From positions 21,667 through 85,666 of the forward strand of contig OMZI01000012.1 of the NCBI GenBank assembly GCA_900315485.1: DNA of 64,000 nucleotides, in the 5' to 3' direction. Of this stretch, positions 24,212 through 61,354 are shown in pieces. The translations under genes were made by a program, and so were the position numbers. Source of the DNA: an uncultured Eubacteriales bacterium (GTDB lineage: Bacteria > Bacillota > Clostridia > Peptostreptococcales > Anaerovoracaceae). The notes below the pieces were generated by a model. The model was not told the origin of the DNA. It made no database searches and worked only from the letters and a program-made list of their open reading frames with translations. The stretch's first letter is position 1. Each line of letters starts with the position of its first letter.

Positions 24212-26233
24212 TTATTCTTCGTCCTTTGCTTCCTCAGCAACCTCTGCAGCCTCTTCAGCTGGTGCCTCTTCTTCAGGAGCTGCTTCCTCTTCAGGAAGAG
24301 CTGCCTTGATGCTCAGGCTGATTCTTCTCTTTTCAGGGTCGATCTCCATGATCTTGACCTTGACTGTCTCGCCGACCTTGAGTTCATCACTTACGTTCTC
24401 AACTCTCTTGTTAGCGATCTCGGAAATGTGAACCAGTCCATCAAGTCCTGCTTCGAGTTCAACGAATGCACCGTACTCCTTGGTCTGAACAACCTTTCCG
24501 TCGAGTACATCGCCTACCTGGTACTTGTCCCCTACAAGAGTCCAAGGTTCAGGCTGAGTCTGCTTGAGTCCGAGAGAGATCTTGCCCTTTTCCTCGTTGA
24601 GTGAGAGGATCTTGACATTGATGATATCACCGATCTTGAGAACTTCTTCAGGGTGCTTGAGCTTGCCCCATGAAATCTCGGAAATGTGGAGAAGTCCGTC
24701 AACTCCGCCAATATCTACGAATGCACCGTAGTCGGTGAATCTCATTACCTTACCTTCAACTACATCGCCGACATTCAGATTGCTCCAGATCTCAGCAACT
24801 GCCTTACGCTTTTCCTCTACTAGTACTGTCTTGCGAGAGAATACTGCTCTGTTACGCTTTGTATCAACTCTGATAACTCTTACATCGACATTCTGTCCGA
24901 GGAACTCATCTGCGTTCTCAACATATCTGTCGGAAAGCTGGGACATAGGGATGAAACCTGTGATTTCCTTGTAAGCTGCGATAACACCGCCGTTTACGGC
25001 TCTTACCAGCTTAACGTTGATAACATCCTTATTCTCCATTGCTTCTTCGAGCTCAGTGTAGTTCTCTACTGCTACGAGTCTCTTCTTTGAGAGGAGGATT
25101 CCGCCTTCTCCCTCATCAGACTTGATAACCTTAGCCTGGATGTCATCGCCTTCCTTGAATACGTCAGAGAGTTTCTGTCCTTCTTCGAGAACAACCTCAT
25201 CAGCTCTGAGGATTCCGTCTTTCTTGCATCCCATGTTGACGATTACTGCATCGTCCATAACCTGATCAACCTTACCGTCAATAACATCGCCTGGCTTTGG
25301 TAAACGTAAAGATTTCTCAATGTCATCCATGAAATCCATCATCGGATTCTGTTCCATATTCTTAGTGACATTTTCGCTCATACTAGAAATAACCTCCTTG
25401 ATAATCCATTCGGGCGTAGACGCGCCCGCTATAACGCCAATTTTATTACTTTTTGAAGCTTGTTTCAATAGCTTATCGTCAGCATTTTCAATAAAAATGC
25501 TATTTTCACAATTATTTTTAGCTATTTCATACAACTTGCCCGAGTTGGAGCTGTGCTTATCTCCCACCACGACCATCATGTCAACTTGACGGGCCAGCTG
25601 ACGGCAGCTCTCCTGCCTGTCCCTCGTCGCGTTGCATATCGTCCTGCGCACATCATAGGTTTTGCCGGCTCTGTCAAACTCTGAAAGTATGTCTTCAAGA
25701 AGTTCTGCCTTGATGGTTGTCTGGCATACGATCACAGGAATGTCAGCATTTTTATGCCCGGAAACATACTCTGCAGCTTCTTCCGCATTGCCTATAACCT
25801 CTGCCTCATATCCGCACCAGCCGCAGGTGGCTCTGACCTCCTGATGGTTTCTGTCTCCTACCATGATCACAGGTCTTCCTGCCTCATGCGCTTCACTTAC
25901 GATATCATGTATCTTTTTGACAAAAACGCATGTCGTATCCACAAGTCTGATCCCGCGGCGCTCAGCTTCCTCATAGAACTCTCTCGGCTCACCGTGCGAC
26001 CTGACTATAACTGTATCGCCCTCCTCTGCTTCGGAAAGCGATCCGATCATTTTGACTCCCATCGACTCCAGCCGTGAAACGACAGCGCTGTTGTGGATGA
26101 GATGTCCGCAGGTAAAAAGCCTGCCCTTTCCGTCCTGCGCGGAGGCATGCTTCTCAGCTTCTGTAAAAGCCAGATTGATGGCTCTGTCTACTCCGAAACA
26201 GAATCCGGAGTGCTCTGCTCTTATGATTTCCAA
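24212..26233 (-). CDS. ispH: IspH fused to ribosomal protein S1 (HMBPP reductase / S1 RNA-binding protein)
   Basis: 673 residues. Residues 1-285 are IspH, the [4Fe-4S] reductase that makes IPP and DMAPP in the MEP pathway; the cluster cysteines are in GFCFGV, DTTCVF and ICNATRDRQ. The rest is an S1-like protein with four OB-fold S1 repeats, the last two being canonical (GAFVDIGGVDGLLHISEIS; GAFVELEAGLDGLVHISEI), and an acidic Glu/Ala tail. This fusion is known from Clostridia. The start is TTG, with AAGGAG 8 nt upstream. Whether the fusion links isoprenoid supply to translation is not known. Confidence 0.95.
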   Translation of the reverse strand: MEIIRAEHSGFCFGVDRAINLAFTEAEKHASAQDGKGRLFTCGHLIHNSAVVSRLESMGVKMIGSLSEAEEGDTVIVRSHGEPREFYEEAERRGIRLVDTTCVFVKKIHDIVSEAHEAGRPVIMVGDRNHQEVRATCGWCGYEAEVIGNAEEAAEYVSGHKNADIPVIVCQTTIKAELLEDILSEFDRAGKTYDVRRTICNATRDRQESCRQLARQVDMMVVVGDKHSSNSGKLYEIAKNNCENSIFIENADDKLLKQASKSNKIGVIAGASTPEWIIKEVISSMSENVTKNMEQNPMMDFMDDIEKSLRLPKPGDVIDGKVDQVMDDAVIVNMGCKKDGILRADEVVLEEGQKLSDVFKEGDDIQAKVIKSDEGEGGILLSKKRLVAVENYTELEEAMENKDVINVKLVRAVNGGVIAAYKEITGFIPMSQLSDRYVENADEFLGQNVDVRVIRVDTKRNRAVFSRKTVLVEEKRKAVAEIWSNLNVGDVVEGKVMRFTDYGAFVDIGGVDGLLHISEISWGKLKHPEEVLKIGDIINVKILSLNEEKGKISLGLKQTQPEPWTLVGDKYQVGDVLDGKVVQTKEYGAFVELEAGLDGLVHISEIANKRVENVSDELKVGETVKVKIMEIDPEKRRISLSIKAALPEEEAAPEEEAPAEEAAEVAEEAKDEE

Positions 26234-26298: not shown

Positions 26299-28065
26299 TT
26301 ATCTTGCCACTATTGCTGCAATTATCAGCATTGCAGCGAATACTGTAACTATGGCAGTTACTATGTCGCCGACAAGTCTGTCCTCATTCTCGAATGAGAA
26401 GTTCTTGATGCGTACGCTGCTGCTGGTTCTGGTCCAGAGAGTCGGATCTCCGAAGTGCAGTCTGAGGTATTCTGCTGCTCTGCCGCTGTGGATGCCGCAC
26501 CATCTGAAGATGCTTTCAATAACATGTGAGATCTTCAGCATCAGGGTGTTGAACGGTCTTCTGTAGAACCAGTCAAAATCCACGGTCACTTCGTCGTGCG
26601 GTTTCATCTTCTTCAGATAAAGGAAGAATGGTATCGATCCTCCGATGAAGATGGCGATGTATTCAAGAACATGTCCCATGTGATAAGGCTCTACGATCGT
26701 CTTATATGGCATAAGAGCGTAGAACTTATCCGGGAATATGCCGATCGCAACGGTAGCGGCTGTACCGAGAACCATAGCGAGGTTCATAGAGAACGGTACT
26801 TTCTTATCCACTTCTGAGACTGTCTCATCATCACAAGGTCCGAAGAAAACAAAGTAATTGATCTTCAGTGTGATGGACAGAAGTGTACCGACGCCGCCTG
26901 CAGTAAGGAGCAGAGCCGGGATAGTATAACCCGCCTCATGGACCGCATCCATGATAAGCGCTTTGCTCACAAATCCTGAAAGACTGGGCAGACCGGCTAT
27001 AGCGAGAGAACTGATAAGGAAACATCCCGCCGTGACAGGCATCTTCTTCGCAAGTCCTCCGAGCTCGGTGATATTGCTCCTGCCCGTAGCATATATGACT
27101 GCACCGGCACCCATCATAAGCACACCCTTGAACAGAATGTTGGTGAAAGCATGTGCTGTTGCGGCGTCTATTCCGATCGCGCCGCCGACACCTGCTGCAG
27201 CTATCATCATGCCGAGCTGGCTTACGATGTGATATGCCAGCAGTCTTCTGATGCCGTTTTCCATGATCGCCATACATGCACCATAGATAGCGACGATAGC
27301 TCCTATCCATACGAGGTCTGTCATGCCGCTCATCATCCTCAGCATCAGATAAATTGCAGCCTTGGTAGTGAATGATGAAAGATATACAGTTCCGGTTGCA
27401 GTTGATTCAGGATAAGCGTCCGGAAGCCATGCATGCAGAGGCGGGATAGCTGCGTTGACAGCAATTCCGATCGCTATCAGCCAGAAGCACGGCTCACCTA
27501 TGCAGTCTGAAAGATGACCGAGATTGTTGTCATAGTGGAACATGTATATGATAAGTCCCGCAAGCAGCATATTGCCGCCGAATGCGTGTACCAGTATATA
27601 TCTGAAGGATGCTCTCGCAGATGCCCTGTCATGCTTGCAGTAAACGACATACATCGATGCAAAAGCAGATATCTCCCAGAAAACGATCAGAGAAATACAG
27701 TCTCCTGCAAGTATGACGCCCATTACGCTGCCCGCATATACCATCGACATACCGCACTCATATCTGTGCTGGATGCCTATTCCGTATATTCCGTTGAGGA
27801 TCGCTATGATGCAGAACACCAGCATGAATGTCCATGCCAGACTGTCGAGGTGTATGAACTCCATCTGAATATACGGTGCAAGCTTATACGGAAGACTGCT
27901 GTCAGGTGTCATCTGCAGGAATGCCCACGCCGCAGTTACAGGCGCGATAATACTGAGAGGCTTTCTGAAGCCCCTCGGAAGAAGCATGACAAGAATACCG
28001 AACAGGATCATTATGATCCCCGGATGCAGTATAGTCATTAACTTGTCAGTTGTGAATCCTGCCAA
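26299..28065 (-). CDS. Proton-conducting antiporter-like membrane subunit (NuoL/NuoM/MrpD family), third copy
   Basis: 588 residues, about 14-15 membrane helices. Key features are FWEISAFASMYVVY (the conserved glutamate of TM5), PPLHAWLPDAYPESTATGTVYLSS, a conserved lysine in TTKAAIYLML and a histidine-rich ILFKGVLMMGAGAV segment. A C-terminal extension with an extra helix (about 440-588) is longer than in the two sister subunits. It is the last gene of the Mrp/Mbh-like operon, 33 nt after the gene for the acidic tail protein. Confidence 0.9.
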   Translation of the reverse strand: MAGFTTDKLMTILHPGIIMILFGILVMLLPRGFRKPLSIIAPVTAAWAFLQMTPDSSLPYKLAPYIQMEFIHLDSLAWTFMLVFCIIAILNGIYGIGIQHRYECGMSMVYAGSVMGVILAGDCISLIVFWEISAFASMYVVYCKHDRASARASFRYILVHAFGGNMLLAGLIIYMFHYDNNLGHLSDCIGEPCFWLIAIGIAVNAAIPPLHAWLPDAYPESTATGTVYLSSFTTKAAIYLMLRMMSGMTDLVWIGAIVAIYGACMAIMENGIRRLLAYHIVSQLGMMIAAAGVGGAIGIDAATAHAFTNILFKGVLMMGAGAVIYATGRSNITELGGLAKKMPVTAGCFLISSLAIAGLPSLSGFVSKALIMDAVHEAGYTIPALLLTAGGVGTLLSITLKINYFVFFGPCDDETVSEVDKKVPFSMNLAMVLGTAATVAIGIFPDKFYALMPYKTIVEPYHMGHVLEYIAIFIGGSIPFFLYLKKMKPHDEVTVDFDWFYRRPFNTLMLKISHVIESIFRWCGIHSGRAAEYLRLHFGDPTLWTRTSSSVRIKNFSFENEDRLVGDIVTAIVTVFAAMLIIAAIVAR

Positions 28066-28098: not shown

Positions 28099-29025
28099 TT
28101 ACAGTTCACTGTCAGCAGCCTGTTCTTCAGCTGCTTCATTGATCAGGTCGAGTATTTCTCTCTTGGTAACTTTATCATGTAGCTCTATTCCCATTCCGAC
28201 GGCAATCTCTGTGAGCTCCTTCTTGTTCATGTGCATCGAAGGCTTGCGTCTTCTTTCCGTAAAGGCCTTTTCGAGGCTGTCACGTATCTCAGCATACGAC
28301 TCTGTCCACTCGCTGACAGGCTCGTTCTCCGCTGCCCTGGCCTTAGCCTCATCCATAGCCGCCTTAGCCTCTTCGAGTTCTTCAGCAGCCTCTTCCTCTT
28401 CTTTTCTCTTAGGTTTCTTAGTCCTGCTTGTCTTGGCCTTGATGCTGAAGCCAAATGTCTCTTCAGGAGTCTTCGGTTCTTCAGGTTCAGCTTCAGGTTC
28501 TTCAACTGCAGGTTCCGGTTCAGGCTCCGGTTCGGTTTCTTCCGGCACTTCCGGTTCAGGCTCAGGCTCTGCTTCAGTTTCTTCAGCCACTTCCGGTTCA
28601 GGTTCAGGCTCTTCAGTGACCTCTTCTGCCTCTTTTTCAGGCTCAGCCGCTTCTTCTTCATACTTTTCAGGCTCAGAAACTGTCTCTGCGACGTCCTCTT
28701 CCTGTTCCGTATGAACTTCTATGCTCTCAGCTATCGCATCAGGTACCTCGAGCATGATTTCTTCAGGTTCTGCTGCTTCAATATCACCGAGCTGAGCTTC
28801 AAGGTGTTTCTCCTCTATGATCTCACCTTCAGGGTTGGTCTCATGCTCTTTGGTGATACTGATGCCTCCGGCATTCAGCATGAGCTCCTCCTCCCTGAGT
28901 TCGCGGGCATTGTAATAGTCTGCAGGCCTTCTTATAAGGGCTTGCAGTATTATCTTGCTCATGATGATCAGAATTACTGAACATATGAACGCTATTCCCA
29001 GATACTCAAGAGTTTCAAGAAGCAT
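28099..29025 (-). CDS. Single-span membrane protein with Glu/Pro-repeat region and C-terminal HeH/Rho-N-like domain
   Basis: 308 residues, no recognised family. One N-terminal membrane helix (about 8-30) is followed by a very acidic region (about 60-200) with repeated EPEPEPE, EEPE and VPEETE units, a Lys/Glu-rich, probably helical stretch (about 200-250), and a C-terminal domain of about 50 residues (258-308: RRRKPSMHMNKKEL ... TKREILDLI). That domain looks like a helix-extended-loop-helix (HeH/LEM, SAP or Rho-N-like) unit. The same domain ends the MnhG-like subunit of this operon. The gene lies between two antiporter subunit genes, so it is probably an accessory subunit. Confidence 0.85.
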   Translation of the reverse strand: MLLETLEYLGIAFICSVILIIMSKIILQALIRRPADYYNARELREEELMLNAGGISITKEHETNPEGEIIEEKHLEAQLGDIEAAEPEEIMLEVPDAIAESIEVHTEQEEDVAETVSEPEKYEEEAAEPEKEAEEVTEEPEPEPEVAEETEAEPEPEPEVPEETEPEPEPEPAVEEPEAEPEEPKTPEETFGFSIKAKTSRTKKPKRKEEEEAAEELEEAKAAMDEAKARAAENEPVSEWTESYAEIRDSLEKAFTERRRKPSMHMNKKELTEIAVGMGIELHDKVTKREILDLINEAAEEQAADSEL

Positions 29026-29036
29026 TGCATCTGCAC

Positions 29037-30548
29037 CTACATATATGGCATGAATATCTGATTGCCGGCCATGACAGCCAGGTCAAACAGATGAAGTCCC
29101 GCATTAGGGAATACTCCAAGGATTATGGATATTACAGCTGTGATGATCAGCGGTACCAGCATTGCCGGAGCCGCCTCTCCGTATTTTTCAAACTCAGGAT
29201 TGTCGACATTCTTCTTGAATGCAACCAGCACCACCGGCATCAGGTATGTAAGAGCCAGAAGAGCGCTTGCAATAAGCGTGGCAACGAATACCGGCTTGCC
29301 CATTGCAACGGCACCCATAATGATATTCGCCTTGCTTACGAATCCGACGAAGAACGGGAATCCTGCGATCCCTATTGAAGCAGCCGTGAATGCGATCATC
29401 GTGTAAGGCATCCTTCTGCCTATACCGACCATCTCACGGATGTCTTTCTTATGTGTGGTAACGAATATAGCACCTGCAGCCATAAAGAGAGTGATCTTCA
29501 TGAATGCATGGGCAACTATGTGGTAAAGCGCTCCCGCAGTACTGTATGGAGTCAGGATGCATATACCGAGAACGATATACGACAGCTGTCCGACAGTCGA
29601 AAATGCGAGTCTTGCCTTGAGATTGTATTTTCTCATCGCGATAAACGATGAAACTATTATTGTAAACACGGCCATCCACGCCAGTATTTCAGCTCCCTTG
29701 CAGGCTTTCGCAGCCTCAGGACCGAATACATACAGCACCACTCTGAGAGTGCAGAAGGCTCCGGCCTTGACTACGGCTACTGCATGCAGAAGCGCGCTTA
29801 CCGGTGTAGGCGCGACCATCGCAGCAGGAAGCCAGCTGTGGAGCGGCATAACACCTGCTTTGACCATACCTGCTCCTACCATCATGAAGAACACGAGCAG
29901 CATCCACGGCATCGGCATCATATCAGGCTTGATAAATCCGCCCGGTGTGAATTCCATCGTGCCGGTGACTGCATAGACTATTACTATGCCTGCGAAGAAT
30001 ATCTGTCCGCTTATCAGAGTATATGCCAGATACTTTCTGCCTGACATCGTGCCTTCAGCATCCCTGTAGTGCACAACGAGCGGATAAGTTGCTACTGTCA
30101 GAACTTCAAAGAAGATGAAAAATGTTATCAGGTTGGCGGCAAAACAGAGTCCCGTAGCTGCGCACAGGCACATAGCGAATGCTGCATAGTAGCCTGTCTG
30201 GTTCTGCTCTCCGTGCCCTCTCATGTATCCGATCGAATAGATCGATGTCAGTATCCAGAGCGTGGATGCGACGCACGCGAAGACCATTCCCGCCGCATCG
30301 ACATTGAACGCGAAAGATACTCCCTTTACGATGCTGAAGAGTTCAAGTCTGATTTCCGTGCCCGCAAGAACAGCAGGGATCATTGAATATACGATGATGA
30401 TCTTAAGGACTGCTGCTGTGAGGGTTATTCCCTCTCTTGCATTAGGACGTATATGCTCGCCGAGAACATATATCAGGCCGGATGCAATGAGCGATACAAG
30501 GACAGCATACAGAGGTCTCAGTTCAAGTGCTGTGAGGTAGTTCATCAT
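29037..30548 (-). CDS. mnhD: Proton-conducting antiporter-like subunit (MrpD/NuoM family), second copy
   Basis: 503 residues, about 14 membrane helices. FFEVLTVATYPLV carries the conserved TM5 glutamate, and VKAGVMPLHSWLPAAMVAPTPVSALLHAVAVVKAG carries the conserved TM7 lysine and the family signature. It overlaps the preceding mnhD by 4 nt (ATGA). It is part of the Mrp/Mbh-like operon, where several MrpD-like subunits can carry H+ in exchange for Na+. Confidence 0.93.
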   Translation of the reverse strand: MMNYLTALELRPLYAVLVSLIASGLIYVLGEHIRPNAREGITLTAAVLKIIIVYSMIPAVLAGTEIRLELFSIVKGVSFAFNVDAAGMVFACVASTLWILTSIYSIGYMRGHGEQNQTGYYAAFAMCLCAATGLCFAANLITFFIFFEVLTVATYPLVVHYRDAEGTMSGRKYLAYTLISGQIFFAGIVIVYAVTGTMEFTPGGFIKPDMMPMPWMLLVFFMMVGAGMVKAGVMPLHSWLPAAMVAPTPVSALLHAVAVVKAGAFCTLRVVLYVFGPEAAKACKGAEILAWMAVFTIIVSSFIAMRKYNLKARLAFSTVGQLSYIVLGICILTPYSTAGALYHIVAHAFMKITLFMAAGAIFVTTHKKDIREMVGIGRRMPYTMIAFTAASIGIAGFPFFVGFVSKANIIMGAVAMGKPVFVATLIASALLALTYLMPVVLVAFKKNVDNPEFEKYGEAAPAMLVPLIITAVISIILGVFPNAGLHLFDLAVMAGNQIFMPYM

Positions 30549-32023
30549 AAGCCCACCCCCTCAAGCGTCATCAGGAGTATATCTATGATCCTGACATTGA
30601 AGAGACCAAGCCCGAGTATGGCAAGGAAGCACACAACTACAGGCAGAATGATGCTGACAGGAAGTTCGAATTCTTCGCTCTTCCATCTTTCCTTGAGGCC
30701 TGCGCTCTGGCGGATGAATACCTTCTCGATCAGTTTGAAGAAATATACTGCGTTGAGAAGACTGGAGATCACAAGCACTGCTATGTAGATCCATTCATGC
30801 CTTCCGGCTGCGCCGAGTGCGAGATACCACTTACTGAAGAATCCGACTGTCGGCGGGATACCTATCATAGAAAGCGACGCTATCACAAGCAGCCCGCATG
30901 TAAGCGGCATCTTCTTGTATATCCTGCCGAAGTTGTCTATATCCGCAGTTCCGTATTTATACCTGATGGCTCCGGTGCAGAAGAAGAGCCCGCCCTTCAT
31001 GAAAGCATGTCCGAGCATGTGAAGGAACGCTCCTGCAAGGGATATTGGCGTTCCGATGGCAAAACCGAGTGATATGTAGCCGATCTGTGCCACCGATGAG
31101 TATGCGAGTATTTTGCGTATATCTGACTGGCCCATGGCCATGATCGATCCGTAGAGCATGCCTATCACCGAGAATACTCCGAGAAGTATGAGTGACAGTC
31201 TTACGAATCTGAAATCTGTGCCGTATATGCAGAAGAAGAATCTGAACATTGCAAGTGCAGGCACTTTGCCCATGACGCCTGTGATCAGAGGTCTTGAGCC
31301 GGGTTCAGCATGAGCATATGCAGATGGCTGCCATCCGTGGAACGGGAACAGTGCCATCTTGATGCCGAACGCCGGGATCAGAAAGCACATTGCAACGAGC
31401 ATGGCGTTGTCATGTCCGCCCTCATTCAGTATCTTAGCCATGTCTCCCATGTTGAGAGTTCCGGTCGCTCCGTACAGGATACCGATGCCAAGAAGATAGA
31501 ATGTAGCTGCTATGGTTCCTACGAGCATGTATCTGTATGCCGATACTACGCCCCTGCTTCCGCCAAGAGATATGAGGCAGTATGCTGAAAGCGAGGTGAT
31601 CTCGAGGAATACATACAGGTTGAACACATCTCCTGTAGAAGTCATGCCGAGAAGTCCCGTGATCAGCAAAGCGATCTCTGCGTTGGCTGCAGCGATCATC
31701 ATAGGACGCTTTCTGTCTCCGAAGTTGCCTGCGAAGATAAGAGTAAGGATTCCTATGAGTGAGAATGCCACAAGGAGGACAGCATTCAGCGAGTCTATGA
31801 CGAGCTCTATGCCGTACGGCACTGCGTAATTGCCGATCGCATAATGAATAGGACCGTTCTTTACGACTTCGGTAAGCTGTATGACAGACAACACAAAAGA
31901 GCCCAGGCAGGCTATCTTGACCACAGCGTTGCCGAGGTGTCTGTTCACCTTAGTCAGCGCGAGGCAAGGAAGTGCTGAGCACAGCGGTAGCAGTATTACC
32001 AGTACAGGTATGTTAGCTGTCAT
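30545..32023 (-). CDS. mnhD: Proton-conducting antiporter-like subunit (MrpD/NuoM family), first copy
   Basis: 492 residues, about 14 membrane helices. FLEITSLSAYCLISLGG has the TM5 glutamate; KMALFPFHGWQPSAYAHAEPG and LAMFRFFFC follow. The helix with AFMKGGLFFCTGAI is typical of the family. It lies 44 nt after mnhC. Together with the two further copies it gives three antiporter-like subunits in one operon. Confidence 0.93.
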   Translation of the reverse strand: MTANIPVLVILLPLCSALPCLALTKVNRHLGNAVVKIACLGSFVLSVIQLTEVVKNGPIHYAIGNYAVPYGIELVIDSLNAVLLVAFSLIGILTLIFAGNFGDRKRPMMIAAANAEIALLITGLLGMTSTGDVFNLYVFLEITSLSAYCLISLGGSRGVVSAYRYMLVGTIAATFYLLGIGILYGATGTLNMGDMAKILNEGGHDNAMLVAMCFLIPAFGIKMALFPFHGWQPSAYAHAEPGSRPLITGVMGKVPALAMFRFFFCIYGTDFRFVRLSLILLGVFSVIGMLYGSIMAMGQSDIRKILAYSSVAQIGYISLGFAIGTPISLAGAFLHMLGHAFMKGGLFFCTGAIRYKYGTADIDNFGRIYKKMPLTCGLLVIASLSMIGIPPTVGFFSKWYLALGAAGRHEWIYIAVLVISSLLNAVYFFKLIEKVFIRQSAGLKERWKSEEFELPVSIILPVVVCFLAILGLGLFNVRIIDILLMTLEGVGL

Positions 32024-32067
32024 GCTGTCTGTTCCTTCTCCTTCTCAGTTGTTTTCTATCTGTAAAT

Positions 32068-32499
32068 TCACTCATCATCGCCCGGATGATGAAGCTCTCT
32101 GCGTTTCTTATCTCTTCTGGCCTGCTGAGCCTGTTTCTTCAGCAGATCATCCTCTTCAATGGTCCCGTACTTTTCCTTGATCCTCAGAAGAAGCGACAGA
32201 CCTACTCCCGTAGTACCAAGGCTGACTACGATAGCTGTAAGCATAAGTCCGTGCGGAAGCGGATTGATATACTCTGCCGCTTTGACCGCCTCATTCATCG
32301 CGACCGGGATCGTCCCCGGATCCTTCTGTCCGAGACACAGGAAGAAGAATATTACTGCGACCTGCATGACGTTCATGCAGATCAGCTTCTTCATGTAATT
32401 GTTGCACACTATAACACCCGCCACTCCGAGTGAGAGAAGCAGTAATGTAAGAAGATATATTCCTTTTGCTGCCAGGAAGGCATCAATCGTTGTCATCAT
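32068..32499 (-). CDS. mnhC: MnhC/NuoK-like subunit with charged C-terminal tail
   Basis: 143 residues. Three membrane helices (about 14-30, 35-58 and 82-106); PLPHGLMLTAIVVSLGTTGVGLSLLLRI is the MnhC/NuoK signature, with the conserved glutamate replaced or shifted as in MrpC. After residue 107 a charged tail (KKQAQQARRDKKRRE) extends beyond the usual length. It overlaps mnhB by 17 nt. Confidence 0.9.
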   Translation of the reverse strand: MMTTIDAFLAAKGIYLLTLLLLSLGVAGVIVCNNYMKKLICMNVMQVAVIFFFLCLGQKDPGTIPVAMNEAVKAAEYINPLPHGLMLTAIVVSLGTTGVGLSLLLRIKEKYGTIEEDDLLKKQAQQARRDKKRRELHHPGDDE

Positions 32500-33253
32500 C
32501 GAAGGAAATCCTCTCCATAAGTGCGTTAAGTATTGTAATTATCGTTCCGGCAACTCCGATGGTAACTCCTATCTCTACTGCAGTTATACCGAGAGAATGG
32601 AGCTCAGCCTGATGGACCGGAAGCGGCATTTTATTGTATTCGAGATACAGCCCTCCGCCGATGATCGATATGAATCCGGTAAGAGCATATATGAACGGAC
32701 CGATACCGGCCAGAGCAGCTGAATTATCCTTAGGAAGGTTGAAGATAGGTCTCTTCCTTCCTACTACCATGATATCGAGAAGATATGTCATGCCAATAAG
32801 AGCCCCTGCCTGGAATCCTCCGCCAAGGCTTATCTCCCCGTGGAAAAGAACATACATGGCATATATCAGGATGACAGGCTCGATAATGGATATCATTACG
32901 TCCTTGTTGACAGTCCTGTAGACAGGATTTCCGGATGTGTCCCTTAGTCTCTTGAGAGATGCCGGAGCCGGGATCCTGCTCTTAGGACGGTTAGCAAGTA
33001 TTATCACTACCGAGAGTCCTGCGAGGAACATTACGGTAGTCTCGAACATGGTATCGAAAGCCCTGTAATCGACGATGACCGCGGTAACCATGTTAGGAGA
33101 ATTGCACTCTTCAATAGCGTGCTCGATATAATAATCGGACACGTGAGTATTAGGGGCCGATGCAGGGTCCCCGATGGCCGGCAGTACATCGAATGCGATG
33201 AACGGCACGGTGATAGACACTATTAAGAGTATGATAGTGATCGCTCTTCTCAT
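32483..33253 (-). CDS. mnhB: MnhB-like subunit with N-terminal MbhE-like part
   Basis: 256 residues. The N-terminal part (about 1-95) has a membrane helix, a periplasm-type loop and a second helix ending near VDYRAFDTMFETTVMFLAGLSVV, the signature of the MrpA C-terminal/MbhE region. The rest is MnhB, with FHGEISLGGGFQAGALIG and further helices. ATG at 33253 lies 4 nt after the stop of the preceding gene; a TTG eight codons earlier would overlap that gene. Confidence 0.9.
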   Translation of the reverse strand: MRRAITIILLIVSITVPFIAFDVLPAIGDPASAPNTHVSDYYIEHAIEECNSPNMVTAVIVDYRAFDTMFETTVMFLAGLSVVIILANRPKSRIPAPASLKRLRDTSGNPVYRTVNKDVMISIIEPVILIYAMYVLFHGEISLGGGFQAGALIGMTYLLDIMVVGRKRPIFNLPKDNSAALAGIGPFIYALTGFISIIGGGLYLEYNKMPLPVHQAELHSLGITAVEIGVTIGVAGTIITILNALMERISFDDDND

Positions 33254-33257
33254 CTTC

Positions 33258-33497
33258 CTACTTGGTCTTACGGTCAATAGATCTCAGAATTATGATAAAG
33301 AATACTGTCGAAATGACACCGATGACTGCCTCGGTAAAGGCAACGTCAGGCGCACCCATGATGTTGTACAGCAGCATGGTCAGGAAACTGAAAGCGCAGT
33401 AAATCACAACAGAGGTCATCAGATCCCTGCCGAATATGATCGCGATCGTTATTCCTATCAGTCCTATAAGAAGGACAGCCTGGAGTATGAGTGTCAT
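33258..33497 (-). CDS. DUF4040/MbhD-like antiporter subunit
   Basis: 79 residues, two or three membrane helices. It carries the motif MGAPDVAFTEAVIGVIST, typical of the MbhD / MrpA-C-terminal family. In full Mrp complexes this piece is fused inside MrpA; here it is a separate protein, as in Mbh-type and some clostridial operons. A 42-nt gap separates it from the MnhG-like gene. Confidence 0.93.
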   Translation of the reverse strand: MTLILQAVLLIGLIGITIAIIFGRDLMTSVVIYCAFSFLTMLLYNIMGAPDVAFTEAVIGVISTVFFIIILRSIDRKTK

Positions 33498-33539
33498 TGT
33501 TTCTTTCTGTGTGTAATAAATGTTACGGACGGAAACGGA

Positions 33540-34217
33540 TTATTTATCCTTGTCTGCATAAATAAGGTCAAGTATGTCTCTCTTGGTTGCTCCTTCAGGT
33601 ACGCTGATCCCTCTGTTCTCTGCGGCCTTTATGAGTTCAGCCTTGTTCATACTCATTGAAGGCTTTCTTCTGCGCTTCTTCTTAGAAGCCTGCTTCTTTT
33701 CATCTTTGCCTTCAGATTTCTTCTCAGGTGCCTGTTTCTTTTCAGTCTTGACTTCAGGTTCTTTGTCAGGCTTATCCTGCTTGTCTTCCGGCTTATCTGC
33801 CTTTGTCTCTTCCTGTTTTTCTTCAGCCGGCTTATCTGCCTCAGCCTTTTCCGGCTCATCTTCCGGTTCAGGATCAGGAGAAACATACTCAGCCGCAGTC
33901 TCTTCGCCTGACATCCTGGTCCGGTAGCCGAGATAGTCCTCTTTATTGATAGCCGCTATCATCATAAGATTGGTGCCGATCGGGTTTGTCAGGACTATGA
34001 TGATGAATATCAGGAATATCTTGACTGAAAGAAGGCCGCCGTGAACTGCAGCCATCATACCTGCCAGAATAAGGAATGCTCCGAGAGTATCCCCAACGCC
34101 CTGGGCATGCAGCCTCGTGAAGAAGTCAGGGAGTGCAGCTATGCCTATGAGCGATGCCAGCATGAACAGGAGTCCAAGTATTATGAGAACGGCCGTAATG
34201 ATCATTGTAGCTGTCAT
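33540..34217 (-). CDS. mnhG: MnhG-like subunit with long charged C-terminal extension
   Basis: 225 residues. Residues 1-105 are MnhG: three helices and the motif ALPDFFTRLHAQGVGDTLGAFLIL. The usual family length is about 100-130. From about 105 to 181 a Pro/Glu/Lys linker follows (DPEPEDEPEKAEADKPAEE type), then a C-terminal RRRKPSMSMNKAEL ... TKRDILDLI domain (182-225) that matches the end of the 308-residue protein from the same operon. It overlaps mnhF by 4 nt. Confidence 0.92.
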   Translation of the reverse strand: MTATMIITAVLIILGLLFMLASLIGIAALPDFFTRLHAQGVGDTLGAFLILAGMMAAVHGGLLSVKIFLIFIIIVLTNPIGTNLMMIAAINKEDYLGYRTRMSGEETAAEYVSPDPEPEDEPEKAEADKPAEEKQEETKADKPEDKQDKPDKEPEVKTEKKQAPEKKSEGKDEKKQASKKKRRRKPSMSMNKAELIKAAENRGISVPEGATKRDILDLIYADKDK

Positions 34218-34480
34218 TTTTTCCGCCCTCCTATATACTTCGCAAGGATGACGGATGTCACAAATCCGAGGATCGAATAGCTGAGTGCTATGTCTATGAA
34301 CATGTCCTCCCTGCCGCCAACGAATCCGACAACAAGAATAAGCAGCACGATAACAGTGTTCATCGCGAAAACGTAGTTGAGCTTGTCAAGCAGCGCCTTC
34401 CTTCTGAACATCAGGACTACCATTGCTGCAAGTATCAATATGAGTGCCGCAAGCACATACTGCCAGAAGTTCGTCATCAT
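34214..34480 (-). CDS. mnhF: MnhF-like subunit
   Basis: 88 residues, three membrane helices; the DKLNYVFAMNTV and GFVTSVILAKYIGGRKK segments fit MnhF. Overlaps mnhE and mnhG by 4 nt each, showing tight translational coupling. MnhF is required for antiporter assembly in Mrp systems. Confidence 0.92.
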   Translation of the reverse strand: MMTNFWQYVLAALILILAAMVVLMFRRKALLDKLNYVFAMNTVIVLLILVVGFVGGREDMFIDIALSYSILGFVTSVILAKYIGGRKK

Positions 34481-35094
34481 ATGCTCTTCCTCCTGACTTT
34501 ATATTTCCTGCGTACAAGTTCCGGCCTTTTCTGCGGGATCTCACGTTTTACTTCCTTTTCATCTACCGGGCAAAACTCGATCGTCTCGCCGTACAGCCAT
34601 GCGACCTTGGCCTGCATGGACCCGTCAAGAAGGCCTTCGCGAAGTTCCCCGGTAAGTGCGTGAACAGAGAAAACCCCTTCATCCGTAATATCTATAGTTA
34701 TAGTTCCCGGTGTCAGAGTAATTGAATTGGCCAGCATGGATAATGCTGCAGGATTATCATAATCAGCCCTGAACCATGTGACCGAAGGATCCACCTTTTT
34801 CCTGTCAAATAGGGATATCCGGGCAACATAAATGGCCGACTTGGCGATCTGCACAAGCAGCCATGCAAAATACCCTATGAATCTGAATATGTTGACTCCG
34901 AGAAGATAATATTGTCTGTCTGTCTTAGCGCCGCGCATAGTAAGCGTTCTGAGGCATACTGCAGCTATCAGCATACTTGAAACAGCGCCGAGTATGAGGA
35001 ATTTAGGTTCCGTTTTTTCTGACATTACAAACCACAGCACCATCATCAGCACTGCCGTTCCTGTCCAGTTCAATACGGGATGATTATTCCGCAC
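34477..35094 (-). CDS. mnhE: MnhE-like subunit (first gene of the antiporter operon)
   Basis: 205 residues. Membrane helices at about 8-25, 30-48 and 68-90, followed by a soluble domain with LANSITLTPGTITIDI, the MnhE signature. Starts with GTG behind GAGGGG. The operon runs mnhE, mnhF, mnhG-extended, DUF4040, mnhB, mnhC, mnhD, mnhD, acidic tail protein, mnhD-like. No hydrogenase or Ech genes are attached, so it is read as a multi-subunit Na+/H+ antiporter and not as a membrane hydrogenase. Confidence 0.93.
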   Translation of the reverse strand: MRNNHPVLNWTGTAVLMMVLWFVMSEKTEPKFLILGAVSSMLIAAVCLRTLTMRGAKTDRQYYLLGVNIFRFIGYFAWLLVQIAKSAIYVARISLFDRKKVDPSVTWFRADYDNPAALSMLANSITLTPGTITIDITDEGVFSVHALTGELREGLLDGSMQAKVAWLYGETIEFCPVDEKEVKREIPQKRPELVRRKYKVRRKSI

Positions 35095-59725: not shown

Positions 59726-60451
59726 TCAGCTGCTCATCTCATTCCATCTGATCTCATTCTTGTCATATACCGGCCCGTCATTTATGGAGCTTGTATCCCC
59801 GAGTCTTGTCGGTACGATGAGCTCCCCTTCCGGTTCTGATGTCGTGAGCATCTGATTGCTGAGGCTGAACTGCCCCTGGCTGCATCTCAGAACAAGTTTC
59901 TTCAGCATCTGCAGAGATCCGCTTGCACATACATAATTCGCATCATGTATCACATCAGCCGCAGTTCCTTCTCTGCCGTTGCTGCCGTCCAGAGTCAGGA
60001 CCTCTATCTCATTACAGATGGTGCGGAATGATTCGACCATATATATGTCAGATTTTGTATCATATCCGAGAACAGCCTTAAAGCTTTTACCTCTTGTAAG
60101 AAGACATCTGGCAAGTTCGAGCATCTCGGCTACTCCGGCACCGTCTGCCACAAGATATGCACCGTCCGGTACGGCATCGACATCGAATCCGTTTCCAAGA
60201 CCTGTAAGTGATCCCACCTCTGTTCCGATTTCTGTCGAAAGGAGCTGTTCCCCCTCCTCACAGTCTGCTCTGAAAACTACAGAAAATCTGTTGCTGTCAT
60301 AATCACAGACCGGAAAAGGTCTTACAAGTCCGCCCGCTTCTATCATGGCAAACTGCCCCGGCCTCTTGAATCTGCAGTCGTCTGTGCTGAATGTTATCTT
60401 GTATACATCGTTTGCAAGATGCTCCTTGTGAGCTACTTTACTTTTATTCAT
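59726..60451 (-). CDS. PyrK-like flavin/NAD oxidoreductase lacking its [2Fe-2S] cysteines
   Basis: 241 residues, resembling PyrK, the electron-transfer subunit of dihydroorotate dehydrogenase B. FAD-binding domain 1-90 with RPFPVCDYD; NAD-binding part with LVADGAGVAEMLELA; C-terminal SLSNQM ... DGPVYDKNEIRW. In PyrK this last segment contains four Cys for a [2Fe-2S] cluster between SLE-x-x-M and DGPVF; here the stretch MLTTSEPEGELIVPTRLG has none. No pyrD or pyrimidine gene is adjacent. It probably has another partner or has lost the cluster. Its start overlaps the RDD gene end by 8 nt. Confidence 0.82.
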   Translation of the reverse strand: MNKSKVAHKEHLANDVYKITFSTDDCRFKRPGQFAMIEAGGLVRPFPVCDYDSNRFSVVFRADCEEGEQLLSTEIGTEVGSLTGLGNGFDVDAVPDGAYLVADGAGVAEMLELARCLLTRGKSFKAVLGYDTKSDIYMVESFRTICNEIEVLTLDGSNGREGTAADVIHDANYVCASGSLQMLKKLVLRCSQGQFSLSNQMLTTSEPEGELIVPTRLGDTSSINDGPVYDKNEIRWNEMSS

Positions 60452-61241
60452 CTACATCACCCGTCCTTGCATTGACTGTGTCATATTCAGTCTTGTCAGC
60501 AGCTTCTGCCGCTGCATGTTTTGCTGTTTCTACCACAACATCTGCGACGTCAAGCACGCTGTCCGGAAGCTCTGTCACTGAAGGCTGCTCTGTAACATCA
60601 GCCTGTACGGCAGGTACTGCAGCTGCCTGTTCAGGAGCAGGTTCATTCGCCGGAGCGGCTGCCGGAACAGGTGCAGATTTCGGTGCAGGTCTGGCAGCTG
60701 CGGATCTCCGGGCATCTGCCTCATGCATAGCAGCGGATTCCTTCAGGTCAACTACATACGTATCGAGGATCTTGTCATGCCATCCTCTGTTCCTTTCATC
60801 TATAAGTATCCAGATGAACCCGAGGAGAAACACCGATCCGGATGCTGCCTTTACGAACCACTCTCTGAAAAGCATCTTCCAGAACCCTATCGGCTCGCCG
60901 TCCCTGCTCGATACTACCTCCAGTCCGAGAGCAGCTTTGCCTATCGTCTTTGACTTATTGAAAAATACGAGCTGTATTACTACATATGCGATGCTGAGTA
61001 TCAGGGATATGATCAGAGCTGTAGTGGTACCGGCAGTCAGTCCGCCGTTATATCCATATCCATAGCCATAACCGTAACCGAATCCGTAACCGTAGCTGTT
61101 GTATGCGAGTTCATTCGCAATAATGATGATCATTGCAATAAACGCTATGAAGCAGGACACTGCAGGAATGACCATATCTATGCAAGCTGCGCCGAAACGT
61201 TTGCCTCTTGACGCCAGCTTCATTGCTTTTCTTCTGCTCAT
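60444..61241 (-). CDS. RDD-family membrane protein with YG-repeat loop
   Basis: 265 residues. N-terminal RDD motif near RGKRFGAACIDMVIP, helices at about 15-40, 68-92 and 115-135, and WHDKILDTYVV. Between helices an aromatic loop of alternating YG/FG units (about 45-62) is unusual. The C-terminal part (about 165-265) is Ala/Pro-rich and soluble. RDD proteins are linked to ion or metabolite transport in a few cases; the role here is unknown. ATG at 61241 has AGAGG 8 nt upstream. It reads into the PyrK-like gene. Confidence 0.85.
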   Translation of the reverse strand: MSRRKAMKLASRGKRFGAACIDMVIPAVSCFIAFIAMIIIIANELAYNSYGYGFGYGYGYGYGYNGGLTAGTTTALIISLILSIAYVVIQLVFFNKSKTIGKAALGLEVVSSRDGEPIGFWKMLFREWFVKAASGSVFLLGFIWILIDERNRGWHDKILDTYVVDLKESAAMHEADARRSAAARPAPKSAPVPAAAPANEPAPEQAAAVPAVQADVTEQPSVTELPDSVLDVADVVVETAKHAAAEAADKTEYDTVNARTGDVDE

Positions 61242-61354
61242 TAACATTTCCTCTCTACTGCTGCTGAACGTCACTTCAACAGTCATTTAAGTGAATTCAA
61301 CAATATTATACTATATCGTTGGTTAATTTTTTGTATAAATAATATACAATCAGC

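Follow-up and report, generated by a model that had tools for sequence, protein, structure and literature searches.

The window, a stretch of 64,000 nucleotides from an uncultured Eubacteriales bacterium of the Anaerovoracaceae (assembly GCA_900315485.1, contig OMZI01000012.1, positions 21,667 to 85,666), belongs to a draft genome of 2.52 Mb that is 85.6% complete. Its minus strand carries an operon like those of the Mrp and Mbh systems, for which open reading frames (ORFs) and Pfam matches give a complete set of genes: E, F, G, MbhD, MbhE+B, C, D1, D2, X, and D3. Two of the products, the MnhG-like subunit and a protein of 308 amino acids (aa) that we call X, end in the same small domain, of the helix-loop-helix type known as HeH. 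These C-terminal tails are the subject of this analysis. The genes and the parts of the two tailed proteins are as follows.

34477-35094, minus strand: MnhE (PF01899).
34214-34480, minus strand: MnhF (PF04066).
33540..34217, minus strand: MnhG/MrpG-like protein of 225 aa, with a membrane core at about residues 1-95, a charged linker, and a C-terminal HeH tail (PF03334, E 3e-18, residues 11-89).
33543..33704, minus strand: MnhG tail (residues 172-225), a basic cassette, KKQASKKKRRRK, and then the HeH domain (alignment, AlphaFold, Foldseek, and charge).
33258-33497, minus strand: MbhD/DUF4040 (PF13244).
32483-33277, minus strand: MbhE+MnhB fusion (PF20501+PF04039).
32068-32499, minus strand: MnhC (PF00420).
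30545-32023, minus strand: MnhD-like protein D1 (PF00361).
29037-30548, minus strand: MnhD-like protein D2 (PF00361).
28099..29025, minus strand: X, 308 aa, a derivative, with a single transmembrane helix, of the small DYY protein encoded between D2 and D3, followed by an acidic linker and a C-terminal HeH tail (ORF, alignments, and AlphaFold).
28840..29025, minus strand: X core (residues 1-62), a membrane helix (residues 2-31) and an RRPADYY motif; mean AlphaFold confidence (pLDDT) of 91, 96, and 83 in the first three ten-residue blocks.
28285..28839, minus strand: acidic linker of X, net charge -55 over the 187 residues counted, of low confidence at about residues 73-206.
28252..28305, minus strand: second recurrent short motif of the X linker, predicted to be helical, TESYAEIRDSLEKAFTER (AlphaFold and pattern search).
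28102..28260, minus strand: X tail (residues 256-308), an ERRRKPSM cassette, the HeH domain, and the end of the protein (alignment; mean pLDDT 93-96 over residues 261-300).
26299..28065, minus strand: MnhD-like protein D3, 588 aa, adjoining X (PF00361; NF009310, E 1.2e-161, under its curated cut-off).

E, F, G, B, C, and MnhD-like genes stand together in the window, and D2 and D3 keep all of the charged residues scored in the leave-out comparison described below (24/24 and 25/25). Judged by its genes, this is an Mrp/CPA3-type antiporter operon, for which Na+/H+ antiport is predicted. Many NCBIfam equivalog cut-offs were missed by its proteins, and we therefore claim no named equivalog. With the Mrp/Mnh/Pha (CPA3) antiporters and the Mbh/complex I membrane arm, it shares E, F, G, MbhD, MbhE+B, C, and MnhD-like subunits (three, by Pfam), but it differs from them in that its MnhD-like subunits number three, a small DYY protein is present, and both X and MnhG end in HeH tails.

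A shared C-terminal domain in these two proteins, about 60 percent identical over 38 positions, had been proposed in an earlier note on this DNA that was made from the sequence alone, and the alignment confirms it. The tails align without gaps over 39 residues, 23 of them identical (59%; 61% over 38 positions), and the BLOSUM62 score of the alignment was 108, against a mean of 22 (standard deviation, 4.3; maximum, 48) in 5,000 shuffles. A six-frame scan of the window with a motif pattern found these two tails as its sole matches. The fold suggested in the earlier note, that of HeH, SAP, and Rho-N domains, stands as a prediction: for the last 45 residues of MnhG, AlphaFold gave two confident helices (12-21 and 32-43; mean pLDDT, 87) around an extended loop, and not the disorder without a common fold that the note had named as the outcome that would count against it. 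When the full length of X was predicted, confidence was high for the membrane helix and for residues 261-300, residues from about 73 to 206 mostly had pLDDT values below 60, and further helices were placed at residues 207-234 and 244-257. The best match to the tail among Protein Data Bank structures in Foldseek was T4 endonuclease VII (template-modeling score, 0.72 over the query), followed by the C-terminal domain of CDNF bound to BiP and then by Rho, Tho1, and SAP, a series that takes in both nucleic-acid and protein binders.

Nine of 17 Mrp tails scanned matched Rho_N at E values up to 1 (best, 0.00046), and a sequence search of solved structures with tail alignments gave the Rho RNA-binding domain as its sole related match (E 0.42). 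Two short helices around an extended loop, together with weak Pfam matches, are what the Mrp tails have in common with Rho_N (PF07498), SAP (PF02037), and HeH/LEM (PF12949); unlike these, they add a basic RKPSM-type cassette and sit on membrane proteins via long, mostly acidic linkers. Both window tails also matched the C-terminal end of a phage endonuclease VII-like profile, phrog_3281 (E 1e-6 and 2.5e-8), which differs from them in its phage nuclease context and its lack of a membrane anchor.

Relatives of D3 suggest where X came from. Of at least 570 confirmed relatives in a search with a D3 alignment, the best 80 were used; they come from Clostridia, Selenomonadales, Chloroflexi, Deltaproteobacteria, rhizobia, an archaeon, and others, and the nearest named records are metagenome-assembled genomes that bear the labels uncultured Clostridiales bacterium, Clostridia bacterium, or Mogibacterium sp. 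and come from goat and sheep gut. Among the matches listed with an ORF between D2 and D3, most encode there a short membrane protein that has a DYY-type motif close to the C terminus; some intervals have no ORF above the 40-residue limit or only one in the wrong frame. Beyond the family, these small proteins usually have two hydrophobic stretches, judged by eye, and X has one membrane helix. Two of them were scanned against Pfam, and no family matched. X keeps the position directly upstream of D3, the membrane helix, and the DYY motif. X thus derives from the small membrane protein of DYY type that is encoded between two MnhD-like genes in several phyla. No HeH tail was found, by reading, on 40 MnhG ends from outside the genus (loci L094-L160) or on the X-position proteins listed. 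The linker of X holds a second recurrent motif, approximately DEIRKSLEEAY, which is present in 10 of 21 X proteins, including one without a tail (in genome G027) and that of the remnant locus described below. The pattern for this motif was written after the sequences had been seen; a slightly different control pattern was found 9 times, against 0 in 500 rounds of linker shuffles.

D3 was present in 15 of the 60 genomes searched (the source genome included), all in the genus of the window, and X carried the tail in 12 of these 15. The X tails of five genomes (G060, G062, G063, G064, and G067) were found via the tail search itself and are excluded from this count; that of G062 is weak (31.6 bits). 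In total there are 18 X tails in 17 genomes. Of the 14 genomes in which MnhG was resolved, 5 carry its tail (the source genome, G001, G007, G008, and G035). A sixth, in G010, consists of the tail part only. On the contig concerned (L025), a repeat protein that looks secreted passes into the MnhG linker within a Pro-Glu repeat, inside which the contig seems to be mis-joined; the MnhG tail there has no core, one of the two X/D3 ends is doubtful, and a reading as two tandem Mrp operons in that genome was rejected. All six genomes with an MnhG tail also have an X tail, and that both tails recur elsewhere in the genus speaks against an artefact of assembly. The lack of an X tail in G013/G034 and in G027 may reflect losses, or the tails elsewhere may be separate gains; the two cannot be told apart because deep nodes of the operon tree have support of only 53-80. 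A different kind of extension was seen in G029, where MnhG (L022:8088-9254, minus strand) has a repetitive end of 293 residues, rich in Lys, Arg, Ser, and Asn, that lacks HeH and carries a charge of +21 after residue 95.

A tree of 84 distinct tails placed the 23 from Mrp proteins in one clade (SH-aLRT, 98.7; UFBoot, 100), apart from the tails of other host proteins, namely, ribosomal proteins bL21 and bS20 and the RDD and TM2 membrane proteins. The six MnhG tails nest within this clade, grouped weakly (74.8/43) with the tail of X from G029. On these computations, the X and MnhG tails are of common origin. The simplest reading of the tree is one gain by X and a later copy to MnhG, the second step being less certain.

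The tails had been presented as a feature of the antiporter, and this did not hold. A profile built from Mrp tails matched 45 of 47 genomes of the genus, in 98 distinct segments: 18 on X, 6 on MnhG, 42 on bL21, 5 on bS20, 17 on RDD proteins, 2 on TM2 proteins (with two transmembrane helices), and 8 on others, three of the 98 being assigned by hand from position. Segments with identical last 150 residues were merged, which hid the bL21 tail of G012, so that the 42 bL21 segments stand for 43 genomes. Thus, of the 47 genomes of the genus, 43 have a bL21 that ends in the HeH module, at least 17 have RDD proteins that do so, and 5 have such a bS20; the L21, S20, and RDD hosts were confirmed by Pfam on one example each. 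Specificity for the antiporter is rejected, since bL21, bS20, RDD, and TM2 proteins bear the module; wide occurrence in unrelated proteins, which the earlier note had named among the outcomes that would refute it, is thus what was observed. One alcohol-dehydrogenase-like match (L076) was rejected as chance. In an alignment of 18 tails from six classes, the whole HeH domain was alignable, with seven positions invariant, and the profile built from X and MnhG also finds the bL21 tails. The tails of bL21 in the family, and of bS20 in five species of the genus, are thus the same module, alignable over its full length; they differ from the Mrp tails in their ribosomal hosts, in their short linkers rich in A, K, and E, and in having no basic cassette on average. 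The five bS20 tails (L050, L054, L065, L173, and L177) lie in genomes of 1.1-1.4 Mb (G011, G013, G027, G060, and G062). A frame of 340 aa (L077) has the reverse layout, with an HeH-like module at the N terminus, an acidic linker after it, and one hydrophobic stretch.

Beyond the genus, a profile of all tail classes matched 90 of 120 genomes of the family. Of the loci of its 30 best matches, 29 were bL21 tails and one was X of the window; some weaker matches, outside these 30 loci, fall in frames of 400-780 residues. At E 1e-5, a threshold that would miss diverged relatives, the profile matched 0 of the other 198 genomes sampled from the phylum. The Mrp profile matched 16 of 247 genomes of the order at E 1e-12, and in this sample its matches at E 1e-22 or better were all in this genus. 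The plain reading of this distribution is that the HeH module is at home on bL21 in the family and spread to other proteins in the genus, a direction suggested by where the tails occur.

The RDD tail was compared with the X tail genome by genome. Among the 11 genomes with X tails whose RDD protein was inspected, that protein has an extended tail without HeH in 9, including that of the window, and a tail with HeH in 2 (G021 and G063); G060 is a third genome with both HeH tails. An either-or distribution was rejected, with 3 genomes having both tails, 14 the X tail only, 14 the RDD tail only, and 16 neither (Fisher test on the 47 genomes, uncorrected for their kinship: one-sided p 0.045, two-sided p 0.062). 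G025 is likely a fourth genome with both, its RDD and HeH frames lying side by side in one stretch in two reading frames. In the window, the RDD-family membrane protein (60444-61286, minus strand) has a Gly/Tyr-rich loop and an extended C-terminal tail that lacks HeH; the orthologue in related genomes ends in HeH.

Selection on the tail was estimated from the ratio of nonsynonymous to synonymous substitution rates (dN/dS). No ratio is available where dS was saturated, and G035 and G010 did not contribute their X tails. In the six computable comparisons, the dN/dS of the tail was 0.07-0.35, and the linker dN exceeded the tail dN in every pair for which both were computed. The tail is under purifying selection in closely related pairs, as these ratios show.

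A remnant locus in one genome, G064, bears on what the tail is for. At the syntenic place (L218:7245-10781), the flanking genes, which we take to be radical SAM, LexA-like, ProC-like, and aminopeptidase-like genes, keep the order that they have in the window, but of the operon there is left only D2 (465 aa), X (170 aa), and D3 (534 aa), all as intact ORFs. E, F, G, MbhD, B, C, and D1 are absent from the locus; the genome-wide search was made for D1 and MnhG only. The D1 search of this genome, which is 83% complete, found only D2 and D3, and the MnhG profile, which gave matches in G022 and G029, gave nothing above the cut-off. Charged residues of D2 and D3 were compared with 13 genomes left out in turn. 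G064 keeps 8 of 24 charged residues of D2 and 13 of 25 of D3 that are invariant elsewhere, a loss of 28 of 49; four of the sixteen D2 losses are due to a shorter start. Complete genes ranged from 24/24 to 24/28 for D2 and from 25/25 to 25/27 for D3 when left out, and the two cut genes gave 17/24 (G034 D2) and 17/17 (G028 D3). Between G064 and G022, dN/dS was 0.18 for D2 and 0.20 for D3, against 0.02-0.10 in other pairs. With the ORFs intact and these ratios raised, the two genes look relaxed but not dead.

The tail of G064 X behaved differently. Among the 14 genomes with X tails used, X-tail identity exceeded D2 identity in 12 of 13 pairs with G064 versus 3 of 78 pairs among the other 13 genomes, though pairs share branches and are not independent. 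The tail dN from G022 was 0.141 to G064 and 0.191 to G029; over the same two comparisons, dN rises from 0.104 to 0.410 for D2, from 0.103 to 0.434 for D3, and from 0.108 to 0.543 for the X core. D2 and D3 have lost charged residues, yet the X tail has barely changed, and selection on the tail seems to be separate from ion transport. On the evidence of this one lineage, ion exchange does not seem to be what the X tail is retained for.

The tail is a small folded domain at the end of a long acidic spacer, it persists where the transporter decays, and it occurs on ribosomal proteins and on further membrane proteins as well; a docking function is the reading that fits best. We propose, as a reading that we hold to be about evenly poised between right and wrong, that the tails are a cytosolic docking module of the bL21-tail type that ties the membrane complex to a ligand, which may be a protein, RNA, or the ribosome. 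X would be the small DYY subunit of a three-MnhD, Mrp-type complex, to which this genus would have added an acidic spacer of some length, a short basic cassette, and an HeH domain of two helices like the one that the family bears on bL21. In a subset of species, a copy of this Mrp-type tail would have been acquired by MnhG. The spacer would hold the HeH domain off the membrane, and the domain, by binding a cytosolic ligand, would tether the complex to it. We infer the cytosolic side of the tail, the fact of any binding, the origin from bL21, and a ligand related to that of the bL21 and RDD tails; one ligand common to all tail hosts is a guess.

Several observations weigh against the docking proposal. 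X has no tail in 3 of the 15 genomes found independently of the tail (G013, G027, and G034, where X has 62-97 residues), and the antiporter thus does not need it. The linker dN/dS in close pairs (0.17-0.32) is little above that of the tail, and ordinary lineages keep D2 better than the tail (mean identity, 82% versus 57% over 78 pairs). G064 is a single lineage known from a metagenome-assembled genome; in its pair with G008, the exception among the 13, the tail is less alike than D2. Its tail most resembles the one in G022 (89% identity over 36 residues) and could have been refreshed by recombination or transfer from a relative such as G022. None of the Foldseek E values is significant (lowest, 0.34), and in the window tails Rho_N scores below its cut-off in X (18 bits versus 24.9) and does not match in MnhG.

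In a rival reading, the HeH tail and its basic cassette would bind RNA or DNA and so tie the complex to the nucleoid or to polysomes. The fold class, which takes in Rho_N, SAP, and endonuclease VII, would suit such a role, and charge speaks on both sides. The 12 residues before HeH are net positive in 20 of the 21 Mrp tails tabulated (range, 0 to +9), strongly basic low-complexity stretches follow the HeH of both X and MnhG in G008 (+16 and +28), and the long HeH-less end of MnhG in G029 is likewise net basic. Against this, HeH itself is about neutral, with a net charge of -2 to +3 in Mrp tails and -2 to +4 over all classes, and the residues before it are not basic on average in the other hosts (mean charge: bL21, +0.3; bS20, -1.8; RDD, -2.6; TM2, -2.5). 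The linkers ahead of the Mrp tails, long and charged as the earlier note had described them, are acidic in 19 of 21 (net -5 to -88) and should repel nucleic acid; the exceptions are X of G011, at +11, and X of G060, which is practically without a linker. A neutral HeH speaks against simple electrostatic binding of nucleic acid, and the basic cassette of the Mrp tails leaves room for such binding. We consider a nucleic-acid tether unlikely, if still to be reckoned with.

Acidic linkers and basic cassettes occur in the same chains, and both tailed subunits come from one operon, so the cassette and HeH might fold back, onto the linkers or onto neighbouring subunits, and thereby serve to regulate the antiporter or to assemble it. 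The correlation between linker acidity and cassette charge over the 21 tails was weak, however (Spearman -0.37, p 0.10), the same module sits on ribosomal and RDD proteins, and the G064 tail is conserved although seven subunit genes are gone from the locus and D2 and D3 have decayed. Joining subunits, one of the roles suggested earlier, is unlikely as a general job: the MnhG tail occurs in 5 of 14 resolved operons versus 12 of 15 for the X tail, and G064 has kept its X tail although searches there turned up no MnhG and no D1. An element internal to the complex thus appears improbable. A sticky C-terminal module that is copied between genes by chance and kept mainly as harmless would account for the patchy tails on MnhG, RDD, bS20, and TM2, for the very variable linkers, and for similar modules at the ends of phage protein families, but the tail is under purifying selection and has been retained in G064 as the remaining chain diverged, which makes this the hardest of the alternatives to credit.

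If it is true that the docking module ties ion-transport complexes and ribosomal proteins to a common partner, bacteria would have a new means of organising their membrane and translation machinery. A bolder form, in which membrane complexes and ribosomes share the module and meet on one ligand, so that ribosomes or nascent chains are linked to the membrane at Mrp and RDD proteins and the G064 antiporter is a pure membrane anchor, strikes us as rather doubtful. G064 suggests how the parts of a transporter that move ions may be lost while a domain appended to it stays, a path to a new function caught half-way. The domain, of 40 residues, is a clean handle: it can be removed, exchanged, or made to serve as bait.

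Mrp systems and HeH/SAP domains are of known kinds, and HeH tails on Mrp proteins appear to be new. A 2017 review, as far as the excerpted text goes, describes the mrp clusters of anaerobes as arranged differently and mentions no such tails (PMC5703873). In line with the earlier note, which knew of no Mrp system with such tails, no description of HeH tails on Mrp, RDD, or bL21 proteins was found in the open-licence literature of PubMed Central, searched by titles and the starts of abstracts with phrases some of which, being long, match little.

Two further frames in the source genome were noted. An ORF at window positions 24212-26233 (minus strand), which we take to resemble IspH (LytB) fused to S1-like repeats, has an acidic end. 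On another contig (C42), a frame of 479 aa (L063) combines a weak HeH-like N terminus with an S1 RNA-binding domain.

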